From: Candidatus Choladousia intestinavium
GTDB lineage: Bacteria; Bacillota; Clostridia; Lachnospirales; Lachnospiraceae
DNA: 61,484 bases
Assembly (NCBI GenBank): GCA_018712785.1
Contig: DVGK01000031.1
Location: forward strand, 1 to 61,484
Direction of reading: 5' to 3'
Part shown: positions 1,708-9,117 of the stretch, piece after piece
Layout of the letters: every line of letters starts with the position of its first letter
How positions within the stretch are numbered: position 1 is the first letter of the stretch
The notes under the pieces: model-generated
What the model was told of the DNA's origin: nothing
Seen by the model: the letters and a program-made list of their open reading frames with translations, nothing else
The model's database searches: none
Program-made: the position numbers and the translations under genes

Positions 1708-3294
1708 ATGAGAAGGAGAGTGCCTAGAGCTGTATCTCTTTGCATGATGGCCGGTATGATTGCCGCAGGAGCGCAGGGAATGCAGACATGGGCTGCTGAG
1801 GCAGAAGTACAAACGGAACTTGCAGAAGAGACGGCGGTAGAGACAGAGACGGAAGCAGTGGCCGGAGATGAGACAGAGGCAGCTGCGGAAACGGAGACAG
1901 AAGCGGCGGCAGAGTCAGAAACAGAGACGGAGTCAGAGACTGAGACTGAATCTGAGACAGACAGCGACACATCGATGGCGGGGGAATTAGCCTTTGCCCA
2001 GTGTGATGATTATATTAACGTTCGGACAGACCCGAGTACAGAAGGCGAGATCACTGCTAAGATGTATAATAATGACTCTGCTACGATTCTGGGACAAGTA
2101 GGGGACTGGTATGAGATTCAGTCCGGCAATGCCTATGGTTATGTGAAGGCGGAATACTTGGCTACCGGCGAGGAAGCAGACGCGATCGCTGAAGAAGTTG
2201 CCTATAACGTGGCGACGGTTCAGGCCAAGGAGCTGAATGTGCGGGACAACCCCGATACAGAGAGCGATGTAATCGATGTAGCTGTTACGGACGATCAGCT
2301 GGAGGTAGTAGCCTACGACGGCGATTGGATGAAGGTGGCTCTGGGAAATGACGTTTACGGATATATTAATGCGTACTATGTAAGATACGATACATATTAT
2401 CCTACCGCGGAAACCCTTGAGGAAGAAGCTGCAAGACTTGAGGCTGAGGCAGCCGCTGCTCAGGCAGAGACGTATTCAGAAACGTCAGAGGAAACCGTTT
2501 ACCAGGAGACGGAAGCTTCGTATACAGAGACCGAGGCTGCCTATACAGAACCTGTATATACGGAGACAGAAGCGCTTGCTGCTGCTGAGACGGAGGCAGC
2601 CTATACGGAGACGGAACCGGTGTATACAGAAACCGAAGCCGCTTATACAGAAACAGAACCTGCTTATACAGAAACAGAACCTGCTTATACAGAAACGGAA
2701 GCCGTTTATACGGAGACTGAGCCGGTCTACACGGAAACCGAAGCGCCAGCCTATACGGAGACGGAAGCTGTTTATACGGAGACTGAGCCAGCCTATACGG
2801 AAACCGAAGCGCCAGCCTATACGGAGACGGAACCAGTATATACAGAGACCGAGCCGGTCTACACAGAAACAGAACCCGTTTCTACGGAGACGGAAGCGCC
2901 TGCTTCTACGGAGACGGAAGCCTCTTCTTCGGATTCAACCCTTGGACAGCAGATCGTTGACTTTGCTATGCAGTATGTGGGGTATCCATATGTGTGGGGC
3001 GGAACAAGCCTGACAGAAGGCGCGGACTGCTCCGGCTTTACACAGTCTGTATTTGCTAACTTCGGAATCAGTCTTGCCCGTGTAGCAGCGGATCAGGCTG
3101 CAGGCGGAACTGCTGTCAGTGTGGACAGTATTCTGCCCGGCGACCTTTTGTTCTACAGTTCATCCGGGAGCATTGACCATGTAGCTATTTATGCCGGAAA
3201 CGGAACGATTGTACACGCCGCGAATTCAAGCAGCGGAATTACTACTTCCAGCGCTTACTATTCAACGATTGTAGCGGCCAGAAGATACTGGTAA
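1708..3294 (+). CDS. Secreted SH3b-SH3b-NlpC/P60 endopeptidase, tandem paralogue
   Basis: A duplicate of the preceding gene with the same architecture and a similar expected role in wall turnover. Features of the 528-residue protein: signal peptide (about 1-31), an extra acidic Thr/Glu/Ser-rich stretch (about 45-85), two SH3b domains, a longer linker of TETEP/TETEA units (about 255-405) and the C40 domain with Cys441, His491 and His503. The ribosome site and its long spacing match those of the first gene almost base for base, which supports recent tandem duplication. The repeat linkers differ in length, as expected for slippage-prone DNA. Each gene has its own promoter and terminator. Confidence 0.9.
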   Translation: MRRRVPRAVSLCMMAGMIAAGAQGMQTWAAEAEVQTELAEETAVETETEAVAGDETEAAAETETEAAAESETETESETETESETDSDTSMAGELAFAQCDDYINVRTDPSTEGEITAKMYNNDSATILGQVGDWYEIQSGNAYGYVKAEYLATGEEADAIAEEVAYNVATVQAKELNVRDNPDTESDVIDVAVTDDQLEVVAYDGDWMKVALGNDVYGYINAYYVRYDTYYPTAETLEEEAARLEAEAAAAQAETYSETSEETVYQETEASYTETEAAYTEPVYTETEALAAAETEAAYTETEPVYTETEAAYTETEPAYTETEPAYTETEAVYTETEPVYTETEAPAYTETEAVYTETEPAYTETEAPAYTETEPVYTETEPVYTETEPVSTETEAPASTETEASSSDSTLGQQIVDFAMQYVGYPYVWGGTSLTEGADCSGFTQSVFANFGISLARVAADQAAGGTAVSVDSILPGDLLFYSSSGSIDHVAIYAGNGTIVHAANSSSGITTSSAYYSTIVAARRYW

Positions 3295-3399: not shown

Positions 3400-3428
3400 T
3401 TGCCCTCTGCCTTTATCGTTGCTATAAT
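3400..3428 (+). promoter_or_regulatory. Sigma-A promoter of cysteine desulfidase-like gene
   Basis: TTGCCC (3400-3405), 17 bases, then TATAAT (3423-3428). The start codon is about 60 bases further on. Confidence 0.7.
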
Positions 3429-3489
3429 TTTTATATATATGCGAGGATGAAGGTTTACATATAGATTTAACAATGGGGAGGAATGAGAA

Positions 3490-4770
3490 GTGGATCAAAG
3501 AATGTATGAAAACTATCTTATGATTTTGAAAGAAGAAATGATTCCTGCCATGGGATGCACCGAGCCTATTGCGTTAGCGTATGGAGCAGCAAAGGCAAGA
3601 GAAATCTTAGGTAGGGAACCGGAAAAGATTCTGGCAAAATGCAGCGGCAATATTATCAAGAACGTCCGCTGCGTCGTTATTCCTAACTCCGGTGGAATGA
3701 CGGGCATTGAAGCTGCCGTCGTGCTTGGAGCCATAGGAGGCGATTCATCCAAAGAGATGGAGGTTCTGGCGTCTGCAGATGAAAAGGCCAGAAAACAGGC
3801 AGGAGAGCTTCTGCAAAGGAAAATCTGCCGGGTGGAGCTTCTGGATTCTTCCATTCCTCTGCATTTTATTCTGGAAATGACCGCCGGAAGTGACCGTGTC
3901 TTTCTGGAGATCAGACAGGATCATCTGAACATTACCAGAATCGAGAAAAACGGGGAAGTTCTCCTGGACAGAGAGACGGAAAAAGAATCGTCTGTGCCGT
4001 CTGTACAGCAGGGTGACCGCACCCTTCTGAATCTGGAAGACATTCGGAATTTTTCAGATTCAGTGGCGCTGGATCAGGTAAAAGAGCTGGTTGAAAGGCA
4101 GATCAGTTTTAACATGGCCATTGCCAGGGAAGGTATGACAGGAAAATATGGCCTTGGCATAGGAAGGGTGATTAAGGAATCTTATTCGGACGAAATGCTG
4201 ACGAAGATGCGCAGTCTGACTGCCGCGGCCTCAGAGGCCAGAATGGGCGGCTGCGAAATGCCTGTGATTATCAATTCGGGCAGCGGAAATCAGGGGATCG
4301 CATGTTCGGTGCCGCTGATTATATATGCACGGGAAATGGAGCTTCCGGATGAGGCGCTGTACAGAGCGCTGGTCTTTTCAAATCTGCTGACGGTTTATCA
4401 GAAATATTATATTGGAAAACTTTCTGCCTTTTGCGGCGCTGTGTCGGCATCCTGCGCGGCAGGAGCGGCTATTACGTATATGGTGGGAGGCAGTCTGGAG
4501 ACTATTAAGATGACTATTGAAAATACACTTGCCAATATTCCGGGTATTATCTGCGACGGCGCGAAAATCTCCTGTGCAGCAAAAATCGCCGCCAGCCTGG
4601 ACGCCGCCTTTCTGGCGCACCATCTGGCAATGAACCATCAGGCGTATTCTCCCTATACAGGTATTCTTCAGGAAGAAACATCTGAGACAATCAGCTGTGT
4701 GGGAATGATCGGAAAAGAAGGAATGAGGGAAACAGATAAAGAAATTCTGAAGATCATGCTGGAACATTAA
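3490..4770 (+). CDS. L-cysteine desulfidase / UPF0597 family protein
   Basis: Belongs to the family (UPF0597, serine dehydratase alpha-like) that includes L-cysteine desulfidases, Fe-S enzymes that break cysteine into sulfide, ammonia and pyruvate in the cytoplasm. Of 426 residues, the conserved N-terminal MGCTEP motif with Cys23 is present, as are Cys-rich segments near the C terminus (CGAVSASCAAG and ICDGAKISC) that could hold the cluster. The start is a GTG, chosen because GGGGAGGA lies a normal distance upstream. It has its own promoter and stands alone. The family is established; the exact substrate (cysteine or serine) is not settled by sequence. Confidence 0.85.
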   Translation: MDQRMYENYLMILKEEMIPAMGCTEPIALAYGAAKAREILGREPEKILAKCSGNIIKNVRCVVIPNSGGMTGIEAAVVLGAIGGDSSKEMEVLASADEKARKQAGELLQRKICRVELLDSSIPLHFILEMTAGSDRVFLEIRQDHLNITRIEKNGEVLLDRETEKESSVPSVQQGDRTLLNLEDIRNFSDSVALDQVKELVERQISFNMAIAREGMTGKYGLGIGRVIKESYSDEMLTKMRSLTAAASEARMGGCEMPVIINSGSGNQGIACSVPLIIYAREMELPDEALYRALVFSNLLTVYQKYYIGKLSAFCGAVSASCAAGAAITYMVGGSLETIKMTIENTLANIPGIICDGAKISCAAKIAASLDAAFLAHHLAMNHQAYSPYTGILQEETSETISCVGMIGKEGMRETDKEILKIMLEH

Positions 4771-4785
4771 TCCAGTATAAAAAGA

Positions 4786-4814
4786 TTGACTGTGAAGGAA
4801 AAGGAGACTATAAT
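4786..4814 (+). promoter_or_regulatory. Sigma-A promoter of tyrosine recombinase gene
   Basis: TTGACT (4786-4791), exactly 17 bases, TATAAT (4809-4814). This is one of the best promoters in the window and gives a leader of about 145 bases before the recombinase ATG. Confidence 0.85.
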
Positions 4815-4965
4815 AAGAGAGACAGATCTATACGAGAAACACATGTTTTTCAAATAGATCTAACCGGAAAATACAGATTCCTTTGAAATACCGGGATCTG
4901 CAGGATTGCTGCGCAAAAGGGATTTTGACGCAGCCAAGGGGATTTATACATAAGGGGATTTTAGT
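4815..4965 (+). promoter_or_regulatory. Structured, repeat-bearing leader of recombinase gene
   Basis: Three kinds of structure are visible. (1) An inverted repeat, AGATCTAT (4824-4831) with ATAGATCT (4854-4861). (2) A hairpin, GCTGCG with CGCAGC plus inner CAAAA with TTTTG (4908-4934). (3) Three near-identical units of the form AAGGGGATTTT (4916-4926, 4936-4946, 4952-4962); the last serves as ribosome site for the ATG at 4966. Function is unknown; autoregulation by the recombinase or translational control are possibilities. Confidence 0.45.
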
Positions 4966-6021
4966 ATGAAAAAGACAGCGACTTACCAGGAACAGGTCAA
5001 CACAGAAAATGTGCTGCGGCTGCGGGAAATTTTAAAAACCCTGCCGCCTTTCGCAAAGGATTATTTCCGGGCCATTGAGCCCACCACATCCACCAGAACC
5101 CGGATTTCCTATGCCTATGATATCCGGATTTTTTTCAATTTTCTTTTGACGGAAAATCCTTCCTTTAAGGGCAAATCCGTGACAGATTTTACGGTGGACG
5201 TCCTGGACCGGCTGGAGGCTCTGGATATTGAAGAATATCAGGAGTATCTGAAGGTCTACCAGGGGGAAGAAAAGGTCCAGACCAACGGGGAACGGGGCCT
5301 GAAGCGGAAAATGTCGGCTCTTAGGAGCTTTTACGCCTATTACTATAAAAGGGAAATGATCAAAACGAATCCAACCCTTCTGGTGGATATGCCGAAGCTT
5401 CATGACAAGGAAATTATCCGTCTGGATACGGACGAGACGGCTCTGCTTCTGGATTATATTGAGAACTGCGGCAGTCAGCTTACCGGCCAGAAAAAGCTCT
5501 ACTATGAAAAGACCAAATACAGAGATCTTGCCATCGTCACCCTCCTGCTTGGCACAGGCATCCGTGTCTCAGAATGCGTGGGACTGGATGTAAACGATGT
5601 GGATTTTAAGAACAATGGAATCCGTGTGGTGCGCAAGGGCGGCTCGGAGATGATGGTTTACTTTGGCGAGGAGGTGGAAAAGGCTCTGAAGGATTATCTG
5701 GAGATCCGCAAAGGGATTACTCCGGTGGCCGGTCATGAGAACGCCCTCTTCTACTCTACCCAGCGCAGGCGCATGGGCGTCCAGGCCGTGGAAAATATGG
5801 TAAAGAAATACGCCAGGGAAATCACCTCCACGAAGAAAATCACGCCTCACAAGCTCAGAAGCACCTACGGGACCACTCTGTACCGGGAGACAGGGGATAT
5901 TTATCTGGTGGCAGACGTACTGGGCCATAAGGATGTAAATACCACCAGGAAGCATTACGCGGCGCTGGATGACGACCGGCGCAGGAAGGCTGCCAAGGCG
6001 GTGAAGCTGCGTGAGGCATAA
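4966..6021 (+). CDS. XerS-like tyrosine recombinase
   Basis: Site-specific recombinase of the phage-integrase family, 351 residues, close in length to streptococcal XerS, which resolves chromosome dimers alone. An N-terminal SAM-like core-binding domain (about 35-150) precedes the catalytic domain, where the full active site can be read: Arg200 (GTGIRVSE), Lys224, His295 and Arg298 (HKLR), His321 (GHKD) and nucleophile Tyr331. There is no phage or conjugative gene nearby, which argues for a housekeeping Xer role or a solo recombinase. The stop codon is 28 bases before a dif-like palindrome, echoing xerS-difSL and xerH-difH gene-site adjacency. XerC/XerD or an orphan integrase remain alternatives. 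Confidence 0.85.
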   Translation: MKKTATYQEQVNTENVLRLREILKTLPPFAKDYFRAIEPTTSTRTRISYAYDIRIFFNFLLTENPSFKGKSVTDFTVDVLDRLEALDIEEYQEYLKVYQGEEKVQTNGERGLKRKMSALRSFYAYYYKREMIKTNPTLLVDMPKLHDKEIIRLDTDETALLLDYIENCGSQLTGQKKLYYEKTKYRDLAIVTLLLGTGIRVSECVGLDVNDVDFKNNGIRVVRKGGSEMMVYFGEEVEKALKDYLEIRKGITPVAGHENALFYSTQRRRMGVQAVENMVKKYAREITSTKKITPHKLRSTYGTTLYRETGDIYLVADVLGHKDVNTTRKHYAALDDDRRRKAAKAVKLREA

Positions 6022-6047
6022 AGAGATCTGGCAAAGGGGCGAATGTC

Positions 6048-6088
6048 AAAAAAAGGTTTACATAATTAAATTATGTAAACCTTTTTAA
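6048..6088. other. Palindrome with dif-like arms (candidate Xer site; may also terminate)
   Basis: Two perfect 17-base arms (6050-6066 and 6070-6086) flank TAA. The arms contain GGTTTACATAA and TTATGTAAACC, whose right half nearly equals the XerD-side arm of Bacillus subtilis dif (TTATGTAAACT, from memory). Read as arms of 11, the centre is 5 bases, one less than a classical dif. A-rich and T-rich ends mean it could also act as a bidirectional terminator between the convergent recombinase and toxin genes. The low GC of the stem is unusual for a terminator. Confidence 0.6.
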
Positions 6089-6096
6089 ATCTTTCG

Positions 6097-6399
6097 TTAC
6101 GAATCGAAAATTCTCGTGATATCCTGATATCGATTAACTACACGATAAATCTCTACATACTCATCGCCTGACTTGTAGATAATCACATGATCCTTCCATA
6201 TTGCATATTTATAGTCAGTCCAAAAACGTACTCTTTTGGAAAGATCGGCTCCTATTCCCGGAAACATCTGAAGATTTTCAAATTTACCGTAGATCTCCTC
6301 TATAGTCTTTGCAGCATATTCCTCACTATCTTCAGCAATGTAATCCCGGATACTTTTCAGATCCTTTACAACCATCGGATTGATCCGCAGCTTTAACAT
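6097..6399 (-). CDS. RelE/ParE-family toxin
   Basis: A 100-residue protein with the RelE/ParE fold signature: N-terminal helical hairpin (KDLKSIRDYIAEDS), a middle FPGIGADL segment and C-terminal beta strands ending in YRVVNRYQDITRIF. Members either cut mRNA at the ribosome (RelE) or poison gyrase (ParE); sequence alone does not tell which. It starts one base after the stop of the antitoxin gene, as is usual when the antitoxin is made first. It faces the recombinase gene tail to tail, with the dif-like palindrome between them. Confidence 0.85.
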   Translation of the reverse strand: MLKLRINPMVVKDLKSIRDYIAEDSEEYAAKTIEEIYGKFENLQMFPGIGADLSKRVRFWTDYKYAIWKDHVIIYKSGDEYVEIYRVVNRYQDITRIFDS

Positions 6400-6400
6400 T

Positions 6401-6649
6401 TTATTCCCCCATAAGTGCTTTCACTTCATTTAGATCAAGCCACCCTTCACCGTCTTTTACTGCTTCTTCGGCTTCCCGCAGCTTTATCAGAAGCTTCTTT
6501 TCCGCAAGATCACGTTCATAATCCTCAATATCCATGACTACAAAACGCCCTCTGCCATTCTTGGTCAGATATACCGGTTCTCCTTTTCGGCAGTTCTTCA
6601 GGACTTCATTATAATTTCTCAAATCAGATACGGGTAAAATATTTGCCAT
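6401..6649 (-). CDS. Phd/YefM-family antitoxin
   Basis: An 82-residue antitoxin. The N terminus (MANILPVSDLRNYNEVL) is the DNA-binding Phd/YefM domain, and the segment YLTKNGRGRFVVMDIEDYE is the family hallmark. The acidic C-terminal tail (from about residue 55) should wrap the toxin. It is the first gene of the operon and follows a promoter with an inverted repeat, so it probably represses its own transcription, more strongly in complex with toxin. The ribosome site AAGGAGC lies upstream of the ATG. Confidence 0.88.
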   Translation of the reverse strand: MANILPVSDLRNYNEVLKNCRKGEPVYLTKNGRGRFVVMDIEDYERDLAEKKLLIKLREAEEAVKDGEGWLDLNEVKALMGE

Positions 6650-6673
6650 GTTCTTTCAGCTCCTTCCCTGATT

Positions 6674-6724
6674 GTATATTGTTTCTATATACTTACATTA
6701 TACACAAAAAGCTGTAAAATTCAA
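6674..6724 (-). promoter_or_regulatory. Toxin-antitoxin promoter and operator
   Basis: On the minus strand, TTGAAT (plus 6719-6724), 16 bases, and TATAAT (plus 6697-6702). Just downstream an inverted repeat GTATAT-N7-ATATAC (6674-6692) is well placed as the Phd/YefM operator. The -35 box lies inside the loop of the terminator hairpin of the preceding gene. Confidence 0.65.
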
Positions 6725-6743
6725 CGTAGATTTTTACAGCTTT
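6704..6743 (-). terminator. Terminator of the 194-residue protein gene
   Basis: A perfect 12-base stem, AAAGCTGTAAAA (6708-6719) with TTTTACAGCTTT (6732-6743). On the minus strand it is followed by a T run, then directly by the toxin-antitoxin -10 box. Confidence 0.65.
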
Positions 6744-6783
6744 GCAATAAAATACTTTTTAATATCTATATGGCGGCCTATTT

Positions 6784-7368
6784 TTACCCGGCCTCCCTTT
6801 CATTAGTCACCATCACTTCCATCTCGCTGACCAGGGGCCGATCGGAGGAAAGCACCAGCTCCACACCCATACCGGAATCCAGGGCCGCCCGCTCCTCGTC
6901 CATAGCCAGCACCTCCATCGGAAGCCCCACTACGGAATAGCTTATGCCAAAGCGGGTGTGCTGCGGAAAGACCGCAAAGACCTGATAGCCCAGCTCCCCG
7001 GTAAAGAGCGCGGAGAGAGGCACGGTATACTCGTATTCCACTTCTCTTCCGTCCTGCCGGATGATGCCGGCCTCGGCCATCCCTGTGGTTACTTGAGGGA
7101 AGCGCATTTTCTCCACCTCGGCGGAGGCAAAGGTACAGAAAACCAGGAGAAGGAAAAGGCCCAGGGAAAAACGACGGATCCAGCGTTTCCTTCTAAGCTC
7201 TCGTTTCTGGAGAAGGGCCTGGCGCTCCTGCTCGGTTCCTTTTTTCTTCGGCCTGTATTTCCTTCCGGTACTCCTCATCGGAACGTGAATTTTCCCGGTA
7301 TTCCTTTTAGATATCCTTTTAGATCGATGTTTGATCTGACCTTTGTTTCGCTGTCTGTATGTTCTCAT
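6784..7368 (-). CDS. Membrane-anchored protein of unknown function
   Basis: Not recognised with confidence. The 194-residue protein has a very basic N terminus (about 1-66, rich in Arg/Lys), one membrane segment (about 67-85) and an outside domain of about 110 residues. The outer part (VPLSALFTGELGYQVFAV, then GMGVEL and a closing beta strand) looks like the last beta domain of membrane-fusion (HlyD/MacA-type) adaptor proteins, but the coiled-coil and lipoyl parts are missing. A TGGAGG ribosome site precedes the ATG. It follows a sugar-permease relic and sits in the module between the two dif-like palindromes. Confidence 0.6.
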   Translation of the reverse strand: MRTYRQRNKGQIKHRSKRISKRNTGKIHVPMRSTGRKYRPKKKGTEQERQALLQKRELRRKRWIRRFSLGLFLLLVFCTFASAEVEKMRFPQVTTGMAEAGIIRQDGREVEYEYTVPLSALFTGELGYQVFAVFPQHTRFGISYSVVGLPMEVLAMDEERAALDSGMGVELVLSSDRPLVSEMEVMVTNEREAG

Positions 7369-7398
7369 GGGCGCCTCCAGAATCTCTTATCCTCTCTC

Positions 7399-7592
7399 CT
7401 ACTTCAGCTCAGAAGCGGAAATCCCGCTGATCAGCTCATCCCGGAAATAGGCGAACAGAAGCAGCACCGGCAGATCACCGCCGCGTAGCCTCCGATGAGC
7501 CCCAGGCGGTCCAGCATAATGTAATTGCTCACCAGCGTCACCTGGTAAGGCATCATCATCAGAAGGATCACCAGTATAAACAGAGTCTTGTT
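7399..7592 (-). pseudogene. Relic of carbohydrate ABC transporter permease (MalG/UgpE type)
   Basis: The minus strand reads NKTLFILVILLMMMPYQV, then LVSNYIMLDRLGLIGGYAAV, a stretch typical of the inner-membrane permease of sugar ABC importers. After GYAAVI (near 7472) the frame shifts by one and continues LPVLLLFAYFRDELISGI to a stop at 7399, which resembles the family's C terminus. About 100 residues that should lie between are missing, so the gene carries an internal deletion and has lost its N-terminal half. The truncated 5' end abuts the second palindrome. Confidence 0.7.
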
Positions 7593-7595
7593 TCA

Positions 7596-7638
7596 GGAAG
7601 TGGTTTACATAATATTATTATGTAAACCACTTCCTTTT
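7596..7638. other. Second palindrome sharing the dif-like core arms
   Basis: Perfect 18-base arms (7596-7613 and 7617-7634) around ATT, followed by TTTT on the plus strand. The inner 12 bases of each arm (GGTTTACATAAT and its complement) are identical to the palindrome at 6050-6086; the outer parts differ. The T run faces away from dtd, so it would not end dtd transcription well. It may be a recombination site or a terminator for plus-strand reading. Confidence 0.55.
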
Positions 7639-7648
7639 GCACTGTCTT

Positions 7649-8086
7649 TCAGCTCTCCAGCAGGATGGTAAACGGCCCGTCATTGCACAGGCGGACCTTC
7701 ATCTCCGCACCGAAGATCCCGGTCTCCACTATGGGTACCTGTTCCCGGCATCGTTGGATGATATACTCATACAGCTTTCGGGCGGTTTCTGGATCTCCCG
7801 CTTCTGTGAAGGAAGGCCGGTTGCCCTTGGTACAGTTGGCGTACAGCGTAAACTGGGAGATCAGGAGAAGCTCGCCCTTTACATCCTTCAGGGAGAGATT
7901 CGTCTTGCCCTCCGGATCCGCGAAGATCCGCAGGCCCAGCATTTTTTTCACCAGCTTATCCGCCTCCGCCCGGGTATCTTCCTTTCCCACTCCGATCAAT
8001 ACCAAAAATCCCTTTCCAATGGAACCAACCACTGCGTTTTCCACTTCTACAGAAGCGTCTGTAACTCTTTGAATAACGAATTTCAT
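7649..8086 (-). CDS. dtd: D-aminoacyl-tRNA deacylase
   Basis: Removes D-amino acids wrongly attached to tRNAs, a cytoplasmic proofreading step. The protein begins [15 protein letters not shown] and carries the two family signatures, SQFTLYA and [11 protein letters not shown], the latter near the C terminus, which form the active site. The length (145 residues) is normal. The ATG at 8086 is preferred over an in-frame GTG at 8098 because AGAAAGGTG lies just upstream of the ATG and overlaps the GTG. In many Clostridia dtd follows relA; here it is alone, next to the palindrome and permease relic. Confidence 0.93.
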
Positions 8087-8250
8087 ACTTTTTTTCACCT
8101 TTCTGTTTCTTCAGGCACAGGATATCAGGGTCACGAACCTGTCCCTTCGCCTCCGGCTCCGGTACGCTAAGGGTCCGGGCATATGGGCGGCGGTTCGGCT
8201 TGAACAGCAACGTCATGATACCACACACGAAAGAAAAGTTCCATCCGAGA

Positions 8251-8279
8251 TTGTAAAAAAGAAAGATTTCTGCTATGAT
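8251..8279 (+). promoter_or_regulatory. Sigma-A promoter of TtcA-like gene
   Basis: TTGTAA (8251-8256), 17 bases, TATGAT (8274-8279). The -10 box contains the ATG at 8275, so that codon cannot be the true start. A GC-rich hairpin, GCTGCC with GGCAGC (about 8306-8324), lies in the resulting leader. Confidence 0.65.
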
Positions 8280-8340
8280 TGATCAGAATCTTTACGAAAG
8301 GAAACGGCTGCCCTTATCCGGCAGCAGACCGATACAGAAT

Positions 8341-9117
8341 ATGAAATTACAGAAATTATTAAGCCTTACCCGCAAAGCCGTGGATGAATTTAAGATGATA
8401 CAGCCGAAAGACAGGATCGCCGTAGGGATTTCCGGCGGAAAGGACAGCATGGCTCTGCTGTATGCTCTCAGCGGCCTCAGACGCTTCTATCCCAGTCCTT
8501 TTGAAATCGAAGCTGTGACCGTCAGCCTGGGGTTTGAAAGCTTCGATCTGGAGCCTGTGAAGGCTCTGTGCCGGGAGCTGGGAGTTTCTTATACCGTGGT
8601 CTCCACCGATATCGGAAGGATTATTTTTCAGGACAGGAAGGAAGAAAATCCCTGCTCTCTCTGCGCCAAGATGCGCAAGGGGGCTTTTAATGAAAAGGCC
8701 AGGGAGCTGGGGTGCAATAAGATTGCCTACGCCCATCACAAGGACGATGTCATCGAGACCATGCTCATGTCGCTGATCCTGGAGGGAAGGTTCCACACCT
8801 TTTCTCCCGTAACCTACCTGGACCGGACGGAGCTGACCCTGATCCGCCCCCTGATCTACGTAGATGAGGCGGATGTAAAGGGCTTCATAAACAAATACCA
8901 GGTTCCCACAGTGAAAAATCCCTGCCCGGCGGACGGCTACACCCAGAGGGAGTACGCCAAGAATCTTTTGTCCCGGCTGAACCAGGAGCAGCCGGGAGCC
9001 AGGGAGAGAATGTTTACAGCTATCTTAAAGGGAAATTTTTCCGGCTGGGACAAAAGGACACCGAAAAAGAAAAGAGAAAAGTCACTGCCCTCTCCTACAC
9101 CTTCGGCAGACGCATAA
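8341..9117 (+). CDS. TtcA-family tRNA thiolase (PP-loop ATPase)
   Basis: Member of the TtcA/TilS PP-loop family; TtcA inserts sulfur at C32 of tRNA. The ATP motif SGGKDS is near residue 35, and a CSLC pair sits in the middle, as in the Fe-S-binding group of TtcA-like proteins. A third conserved Cys is in NPCPADG. An in-frame ATG at 8275 exists but lies inside the promoter, and homologues of this type start at MKLQKLL, hence this start. It is one of only three genes on the plus strand right of 6 kb, and its last 23 bases overlap the convergent pseudouridine synthase gene. The exact tRNA target is inferred. Confidence 0.85.
   Translation: MKLQKLLSLTRKAVDEFKMIQPKDRIAVGISGGKDSMALLYALSGLRRFYPSPFEIEAVTVSLGFESFDLEPVKALCRELGVSYTVVSTDIGRIIFQDRKEENPCSLCAKMRKGAFNEKARELGCNKIAYAHHKDDVIETMLMSLILEGRFHTFSPVTYLDRTELTLIRPLIYVDEADVKGFINKYQVPTVKNPCPADGYTQREYAKNLLSRLNQEQPGARERMFTAILKGNFSGWDKRTPKKKREKSLPSPTPSADA

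Follow-up and report, generated by a model that had tools for sequence, protein, structure and literature searches.

The recombinase gene and its surroundings

Near the start of the window, by which the whole analysed stretch of 61,484 nucleotides of Candidatus Choladousia intestinavium is meant, a gene for a XerS-like tyrosine recombinase is preceded by an imperfect dyad and followed by two copies of a palindrome (Table 1). The active-site residues R, K, H-x-x-R, H, and Y are visible by eye in its translation and the Pfam profile Phage_integrase, which represents the tyrosine-recombinase domain, matches it with 123.7 bits, in agreement with the full active site ascribed to it in a preliminary description made from the letters of this DNA. 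The best NCBIfam model is XerS (NF003462), with 213.5 bits under a curated cut-off of 267, a score that leaves the protein outside formal membership of that family. The same description took the enzyme for a solo recombinase, which does not hold, since a XerD that passes its curated cut-off is encoded in the genome as well.

XerS-like genes are nearly universal in the 60 genomes compared (the window's own, 35 of the same genus, and 24 from other families), with a clear orthologue in 54 of them according to our reading of the matches. Recombinase matches of at least 80% identity are present in 30 of the 35 congeneric genomes, and matches at 47–59% identity in 23 of the 24 genomes of other families. 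The named loci (L numbers) considered below are the best 80 of 550 relatives found by a scan with the recombinase.

Several other features surround the gene. A Phd/ParE-type toxin-antitoxin pair is encoded on the minus strand at 6097–6649, between the palindromes, and is missing from this position in L033, the closest relative. Beside palindrome copy 2, a decayed fragment on the minus strand (about 7380–7600) resembles by eye a sugar ABC-transporter permease; a Pfam scan with a 28-aa piece of this suspected broken permease gave no match. To the left, two adjacent secreted-looking proteins encoded on the plus strand (73–1458 and 1708–3294) combine SH3 and NlpC/P60 domains, joined by long Glu/Thr/Tyr-rich repeats.

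Table 1. Features of the recombinase locus, with positions in the window.
Feature	Position	Strand	Basis
Candidate dif for the XerS-like recombinase, ATCTATACGAGAAACACATGTTTTTCAAATAGAT, with a short centre between imperfect arms	4826..4859	+	34-bp imperfect dyad
XerS-like tyrosine recombinase, 351 aa	4966..6021	+	ORF and profile matches
Terminus palindrome copy 1, proposed XerD-binding site; 27-bp core 6055-6081, 5-bp centre	6050..6086	.	inverted repeat
Second copy of the terminus palindrome, core 7602-7628; the stem continues outside it in a flank unlike that of copy 1	7595..7635	.	repeat of core

A dif candidate upstream of the recombinase

The 34-bp dyad, which went unnoticed in the preliminary description, occurs at a single place in the window and in none of 100 shuffles. 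Its counterparts in the relatives were sought with the pattern CTATACGACAAAC-N4-GTTTTTCAAATAG, allowing up to 5 mismatches, and a dyad-type element was found near xerS, at one place each, in 75 of the 80 loci (best 80 of 550 relatives), the reversed pattern appearing in 0 of the same 80. The five loci of this set that miss it are L044, L046, L059, L098, and L105, among which L044 and L046 start just 22 and 81 bases before the recombinase gene. L059 carries palindromes near xerS, yet no dif-like element at up to 5 mismatches. At up to 3 mismatches, the dyad is present in the window's genome and in 29 of the 35 congeneric genomes, with a second site in G007 only. Coordinate comparison places 29 of the 31 genus matches next to xerS, the other two being the match in G030, where no xerS is assembled, and the second site of G007. 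This dif-like second site (L293:9991, G007:C76:12391) has a perfect left arm and a different centre and lies on a contig other than that of xerS.

Beyond the genus, a related form, YTATTCGCAAAACNNNNSTTTTRCGAATAR, is found at up to 3 mismatches in 91 of the 146 genomes of the order, against one for the reversed control; the window's own dyad is too diverged to match this order-wide pattern. A search of viral contigs for mobile elements that might carry the dif, made with one exact pattern of the genus form, returned 0 stretches. Extra copies of the right dif arm lie between dif and xerS in L037, L047, and L051, where they may serve XerS as binding sites on its own promoter.

As in single-recombinase Xer/dif systems, the dyad lies at the GC-skew switch, essentially once per genome, with the recombinase gene beside it (G172, of family f17, being the exception), and no XerC over its cut-off accompanies XerD in the 60 genomes. 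The earlier view that a Xer recombinase gene of single-enzyme size adjoins its dif is thus upheld, with the upstream dyad in the role of dif. Both its place and its conservation point to the dyad as the sequence at which XerS would recombine and make it probably a better dif candidate than the palindrome.

The chromosome terminus

A switch of gene direction from plus to minus had been described at this locus, and a count of open reading frames of at least 100 aa, chosen greedily, bears it out: 4 of 4 genes to the left of 6021 are on the plus strand and 3 of 48 to the right, one of these three (7637–8170) overlapping a dtd gene on the opposite strand. The GC skew of the window changes sign at the same place, from +0.171 on the left to −0.059 on the right.

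Whole-genome skew was taken from relatives because the window's own genome consists of 160 contigs, the window being contig C125 from its base 1. Among the best 80 of 550 relatives, 54 loci extend 6 kb or more to each side, and the skew turns from plus to minus at xerS in 51 of them and in the reverse direction in 0; the three without a switch are L063, L098, and L105. L098 and L105 lack both the skew switch and any recognisable dif in the locus, and their xerS may have moved away from the terminus. As a rough control, samples were taken across four genomes, some of the samples lying near the terminus, and the two halves of each were compared; a plus-to-minus change was seen in 2 of 40 and 0 of 40 cases. 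Sampling along one long contig placed the switch at dif or xerS in 6 of 6 genomes, comprising two with most of the genome on one contig, G067 (Blautia sp. Marseille-P3087) and G074 (B. massiliensis GD8), where the switch is at xerS, and the single-contig genomes G182, G172, G085, and G097, where it is at xerS or dif.

The same orientation is seen around the order-wide dif form, with a change from plus to minus within 7 kb in 21 of 35 regions, no change in 14, and the reverse in 0 (these 35 are the regions with more than 2 kb on both sides among 40 fetched). Of the 18 regions fetched around the palindrome motif, 6 show the change from plus to minus at the motif, the left skew being near zero in two, and 0 show the reverse. 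The window skew, the gene-direction switch, and the relatives, whose named members are mostly Lachnospiraceae, agree with the replication terminus proposed earlier for this place: the window holds the chromosome terminus.

The terminus palindromes

Copy 1 of the palindrome, whose core has the arms GGTTTACATAA / TTATGTAAACC, is an exact inverted repeat of 18-nt arms (6050–6067 and 6069–6086) that starts 28 bases past the recombinase stop, as had been reported, while copy 2 had escaped notice. At up to 3 mismatches, the 27-bp core has two copies in the genome, both in the window, and no occurrence in 100 shuffles of the window. The closest relative, L033, whose recombinase is 96% identical, shares 31 bp at the palindrome with 96.8% identity, and no blastn match lies directly around them.

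The palindrome is found at up to 2 mismatches in 25 of the 60 genomes, namely the window's own, 22 of the 35 congeners, and 2 of the 24 from other families, whereas the reversed control appears in 0 genomes of the genus and in two others. Of the 35 palindrome sites in the genus, 34 belong to genomes whose xerS is assembled; 33 of the 34 lie within 16 kb of that gene, and the remaining one, in G025, is on a different contig. The palindrome had been expected to be kept beside the recombinase in related genomes, but it is present in 22 of the 31 genus genomes with an assembled xerS (the assemblies being fragmented and several of them incomplete), against 75 of 80 loci for the dyad (best 80 of 550). 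Copies number up to 4 per locus, spaced by 50 bp (L036, L054) or by kilobases, on either side of dif.

The spacing of the half-sites is nearly constant in the genus: among 43 half-site pairs from the 36 loci that were assigned by us to the genus among the best 80 of 550 relatives, 40 have a centre of 5 bp, and one shuffle of those loci gave none. The 44 other named loci (of the best 80 of 550) showed a centre of 5 bp seven times, of 6 bp nine times, and of 11 bp once, and the 18 motif regions one of 5 bp 18 times, 6 bp twice, 11 bp three times, and 13 bp once. The loci of B. luti and B. massiliensis carry a palindrome with a 6-bp centre, and TTACCATAAT is common as one of the arms beyond the genus. 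Two contigs of a viral collection also contain the palindrome (L291:3987-4009 and L292:7898-7920), and a search of both for XerS-like proteins gave no match at E 1e-5 or better.

In the dif of Bacillus subtilis, ACTTCCTAGAATATATATTATGTAAACT (PMC3025954), the XerD side is equal to the arm TTATGTAAAC(T/C), where the preliminary description had spoken of near identity.

XerD without XerC, and its co-occurrence with the palindrome

The XerD of the window's genome, encoded at G000:C89:29497-30357, scores 340.5 bits over a cut-off of 329.6 (339.3 for the protein read from L294), and XerD exceeds this cut-off in 20 of the 24 named genomes searched. The XerC model exceeds its own cut-off (335.15) in 0 of the 60 genomes; its best match in the window's genome is the XerD gene, and genes other than XerD score 243.2 bits or less against it in the 60 genomes, among the matches listed. 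The absence of XerC is based on these scores, because the XerC cut-off is strict, being reached in 2 of 14 control genomes, against 4 of 14 for XerD.

Across the order, the palindrome motif occurs at up to 1 mismatch in 17 of 146 genomes, against 2 for the reversed control. A XerD match of E 1e-78 or better is present in 55 of the 146, and these include every one of the 17 motif genomes (Fisher p 1e-8). Two other thresholds give p values of 1.5e-7 and 5e-8, the strictest leaving 1 motif genome outside, and all of these values overstate independence, since related genomes share descent. Counted by family, the motif is present in 5 of 11 families with XerD and in 0 of 14 without (p 0.009), the families having been typed by hand and f25, with a split XerD match, counted as negative. 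XerS-like genes, present in almost all genomes, therefore cannot explain this distribution.

At the same stringency, the motif is missing from 38 of the 55 XerD-bearing genomes. A relaxed search near dif (up to 3 mismatches) recovered it in 8 of 20 XerD-bearing genomes without the strict motif, comprising 19 of these 38 and G129, whose XerD is split, and in 0 of 20 XerD-less genomes. The reversed motif appeared in 2 and 2, and its scores also differed between the groups, with p 0.003 against 0.0004 for the real motif and a paired test giving p 0.067. The link between motif and XerD drawn from this relaxed search is weak and suggestive only.

The catalytic residues of XerD are largely kept, in the copy of the window's genome too. 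Among 30 XerD loci, 25 were read as XerD by script; all 25 keep H-x-L-R-H and the tyrosine, and the first arginine motif is intact in 24. This hints at continuing selection for recombination and speaks for an unlikely rival reading in which XerD recombines alone.

Placement of the palindrome when xerS lies elsewhere

Family f17 separates the elements that adjoin each other in the window. In G172, xerS lies at 454 kb and the skew switch at 1583–1588 kb, where 539 bp separate the order-wide dif (1,587,353) from the motif (1,587,892), both of them 1.13 Mb from xerS. Including this genome, 6 of the 11 f17 motif regions that were fetched have the palindrome at a distance of 82–837 bp from dif, the other distances being 375 bp in G164, 366 in G204, 800 in G105, 82 in G115, and 837 in G188. 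Motif and dif are 5.3 kb apart in G196, where a search for xerS gave no match at E 1e-40 or better, and dif is on a contig other than that of the motif in the two G126 regions, G136, and G051. Apart from G172 and G196, eight f17 motif genomes have xerS on a different contig than the motif. Thus, where it can be placed, the palindrome goes with the terminus and dif and not with the xerS gene.

Of all 17 motif genomes, 11 carry the motif within about 16 kb of dif or xerS on a shared contig, and 6 carry it on another contig than both (G051, G054, G095, G126, G136, and G198). As in the XerD-binding sites (XDS) of B. subtilis, XerD half-sites are thus found at the terminus of genomes that encode XerD, with 6 of the 17 motif genomes not placeable there.

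Relation to known Xer systems

XerS and modules of the difSL type are already known. The XerS-difSL system of streptococci and lactococci likewise consists of one recombinase of about 350 aa with a site beside its gene and unequal, imperfect arms (PMC5357621), and the dyad of the window resembles by eye difSL as that article describes it. The system considered here differs in the XerS score below the cut-off, in the sequence of the site, in that XerD is also kept, and, in G172, in the 1.13 Mb that separate dif from xerS. XerS alongside other Xer genes has been noted in Lactobacillus helveticus (PMC3025954). Similarly, the XerH-difH consensus of Campylobacter and Helicobacter, TGAAAAC---A-TTTTCAAA (PMC2731167), is by eye like AGAAACACATGTTTTTCAAA of the window, whereas XerH itself is distant from the window recombinase (40.4 bits to 5jjv).

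With the XerC/XerD-dif system of B. subtilis, the locus shares the XerD arm, present in the palindrome, and a XerD orthologue, but no XerC over the cut-off occurs in the 60 genomes, both palindrome arms are of the XerD type, and the palindrome of this genus has 27 bp instead of 28. The palindrome thus departs from a classical XerCD dif, defined by 28 bp, distinct XerC and XerD arms, a 6-bp centre, and both recombinases. At the terminus of B. subtilis, XerD is reported to unload SMC (PMC10945525 and PMC12322038, citing Karaboja 2021). The XDS, at which XerD is bound in that region (PMC10945525, PMC12322038), offer a parallel, with XerD as the presumed ligand here; however, the sites described here have a symmetric sequence and lie for the most part no more than a few kb from dif, and the likeness is one of place.

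XerS with its dif across much of the order, together with a XerC-less XerD that has its own terminus palindromes, is probably a new variant, and the open-access literature searched yielded no description of this system.

Proposed functions and alternative explanations

The arrangement is reasonably likely to reflect two activities, in which XerS resolves dimers at dif 4826–4859 and XerD binds the neighbouring palindromes, perhaps unloading SMC. The neighbouring XerS-like recombinase would act alone on chromosome dimers, while each palindrome (6055–6081 and 7602–7628) would consist of two inverted XerD half-sites, bound by the XerD of the genome without a XerC partner; sequence, place, and co-occurrence with XerD all suggest such binding. 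By shedding the SMC condensin, XerD could then leave the sister termini free for XerS and for the DNA pump of the division septum. Unloading of SMC at the palindromes by XerD, by analogy with what is reported for B. subtilis, is possible, though somewhat short of an even chance. Slightly more tentative is the view that two terminus jobs of the B. subtilis XerD have been split here, with the XerS-like enzyme handling dimers at its own dif and a XerC-less XerD shedding SMC.

The preliminary description had taken the palindrome for the dif of the XerS-like recombinase, and its size and its position beside xerS, both in the window and in various relatives, would suit that role. Its distribution makes this highly improbable, since the palindrome is less widespread (22 of 31 genus genomes with xerS) than the dyad (75 of 80 loci among the best 80 of 550, and 91 of 146 genomes for the related form), reaches 4 copies per locus, and follows XerD across the order; in G172 it stays at the terminus next to the dyad, far from xerS, and its half-sites point outward, whereas those of the dyad, judged by eye, point inward. 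The palindrome was set aside as dif on these grounds, the dyad being near-universal and at one place per locus. A different role in recombination, as a second site for XerD acting alone with a homodimer on each site, in two dimer-resolution systems or in XerD-driven deletion or integration, is unlikely but has more to recommend it: the arms are XerD half-sites, the sites are at the terminus, the catalytic residues are kept in the 25 XerD copies read (one without the first arginine motif), the loci of B. luti and B. massiliensis have the 6-bp centre of a classical dif, and the Phd/ParE module between the window copies is missing in L033. Against it, the centre of 5 bp in 40 of 43 genus pairs (best 80 of 550) falls short of the 6–8 bp normal for dif centres, with 11 bp in difSL, as given in PMC5357621, and symmetric sites in up to 4 copies, some only 50 bp apart, would be expected to invite deletions between them.

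Symmetry and clustering at the terminus do not by themselves name the binder, which could be another terminus protein, such as a MatP-like organiser or a fork-trap protein. That XerD is not the ligand nevertheless seems quite unlikely, given that the half-site equals the XerD arm of the B. subtilis dif and that the motif, at up to 1 mismatch, occurs only in XerD-bearing genomes (17 of 17). It is very unlikely that the palindromes are transcription terminators whose common core is incidental. Both window copies do sit at gene ends and fold as strong hairpins (−17.6 and −27.1 kcal/mol, z −6.9 and −9.8), and pairing outside the core is more frequent close to it (34–43 of 66 distinct copies at positions 12–17 from the centre) than further out (14–30 of 66 at positions 26–33). 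However, among 48 distinct copies only 15 carry TTTT at the stem end, on either strand, in 20 the stem does not reach past the core, and a terminator would not need a fixed core with a fixed centre that is found near the terminus only. A scan of 3400–9000 of the window for known RNA families gave no match at gathering thresholds.

Implications for chromosome biology in the order

For orienting and closing genomes in a large group of gut bacteria, the locus provides a concrete dif and a terminus coordinate that can be used at once. Moreover, a XerC-less XerD with sites apart from the dif of dimer resolution represents a natural separation of function and, since the XerD sites and dif are separated, a conserved role of XerD in SMC unloading beyond Bacillus becomes directly testable. 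If the proposal is true, XerD would be a recombinase that has been retained for chromosome architecture in an order of gut bacteria.
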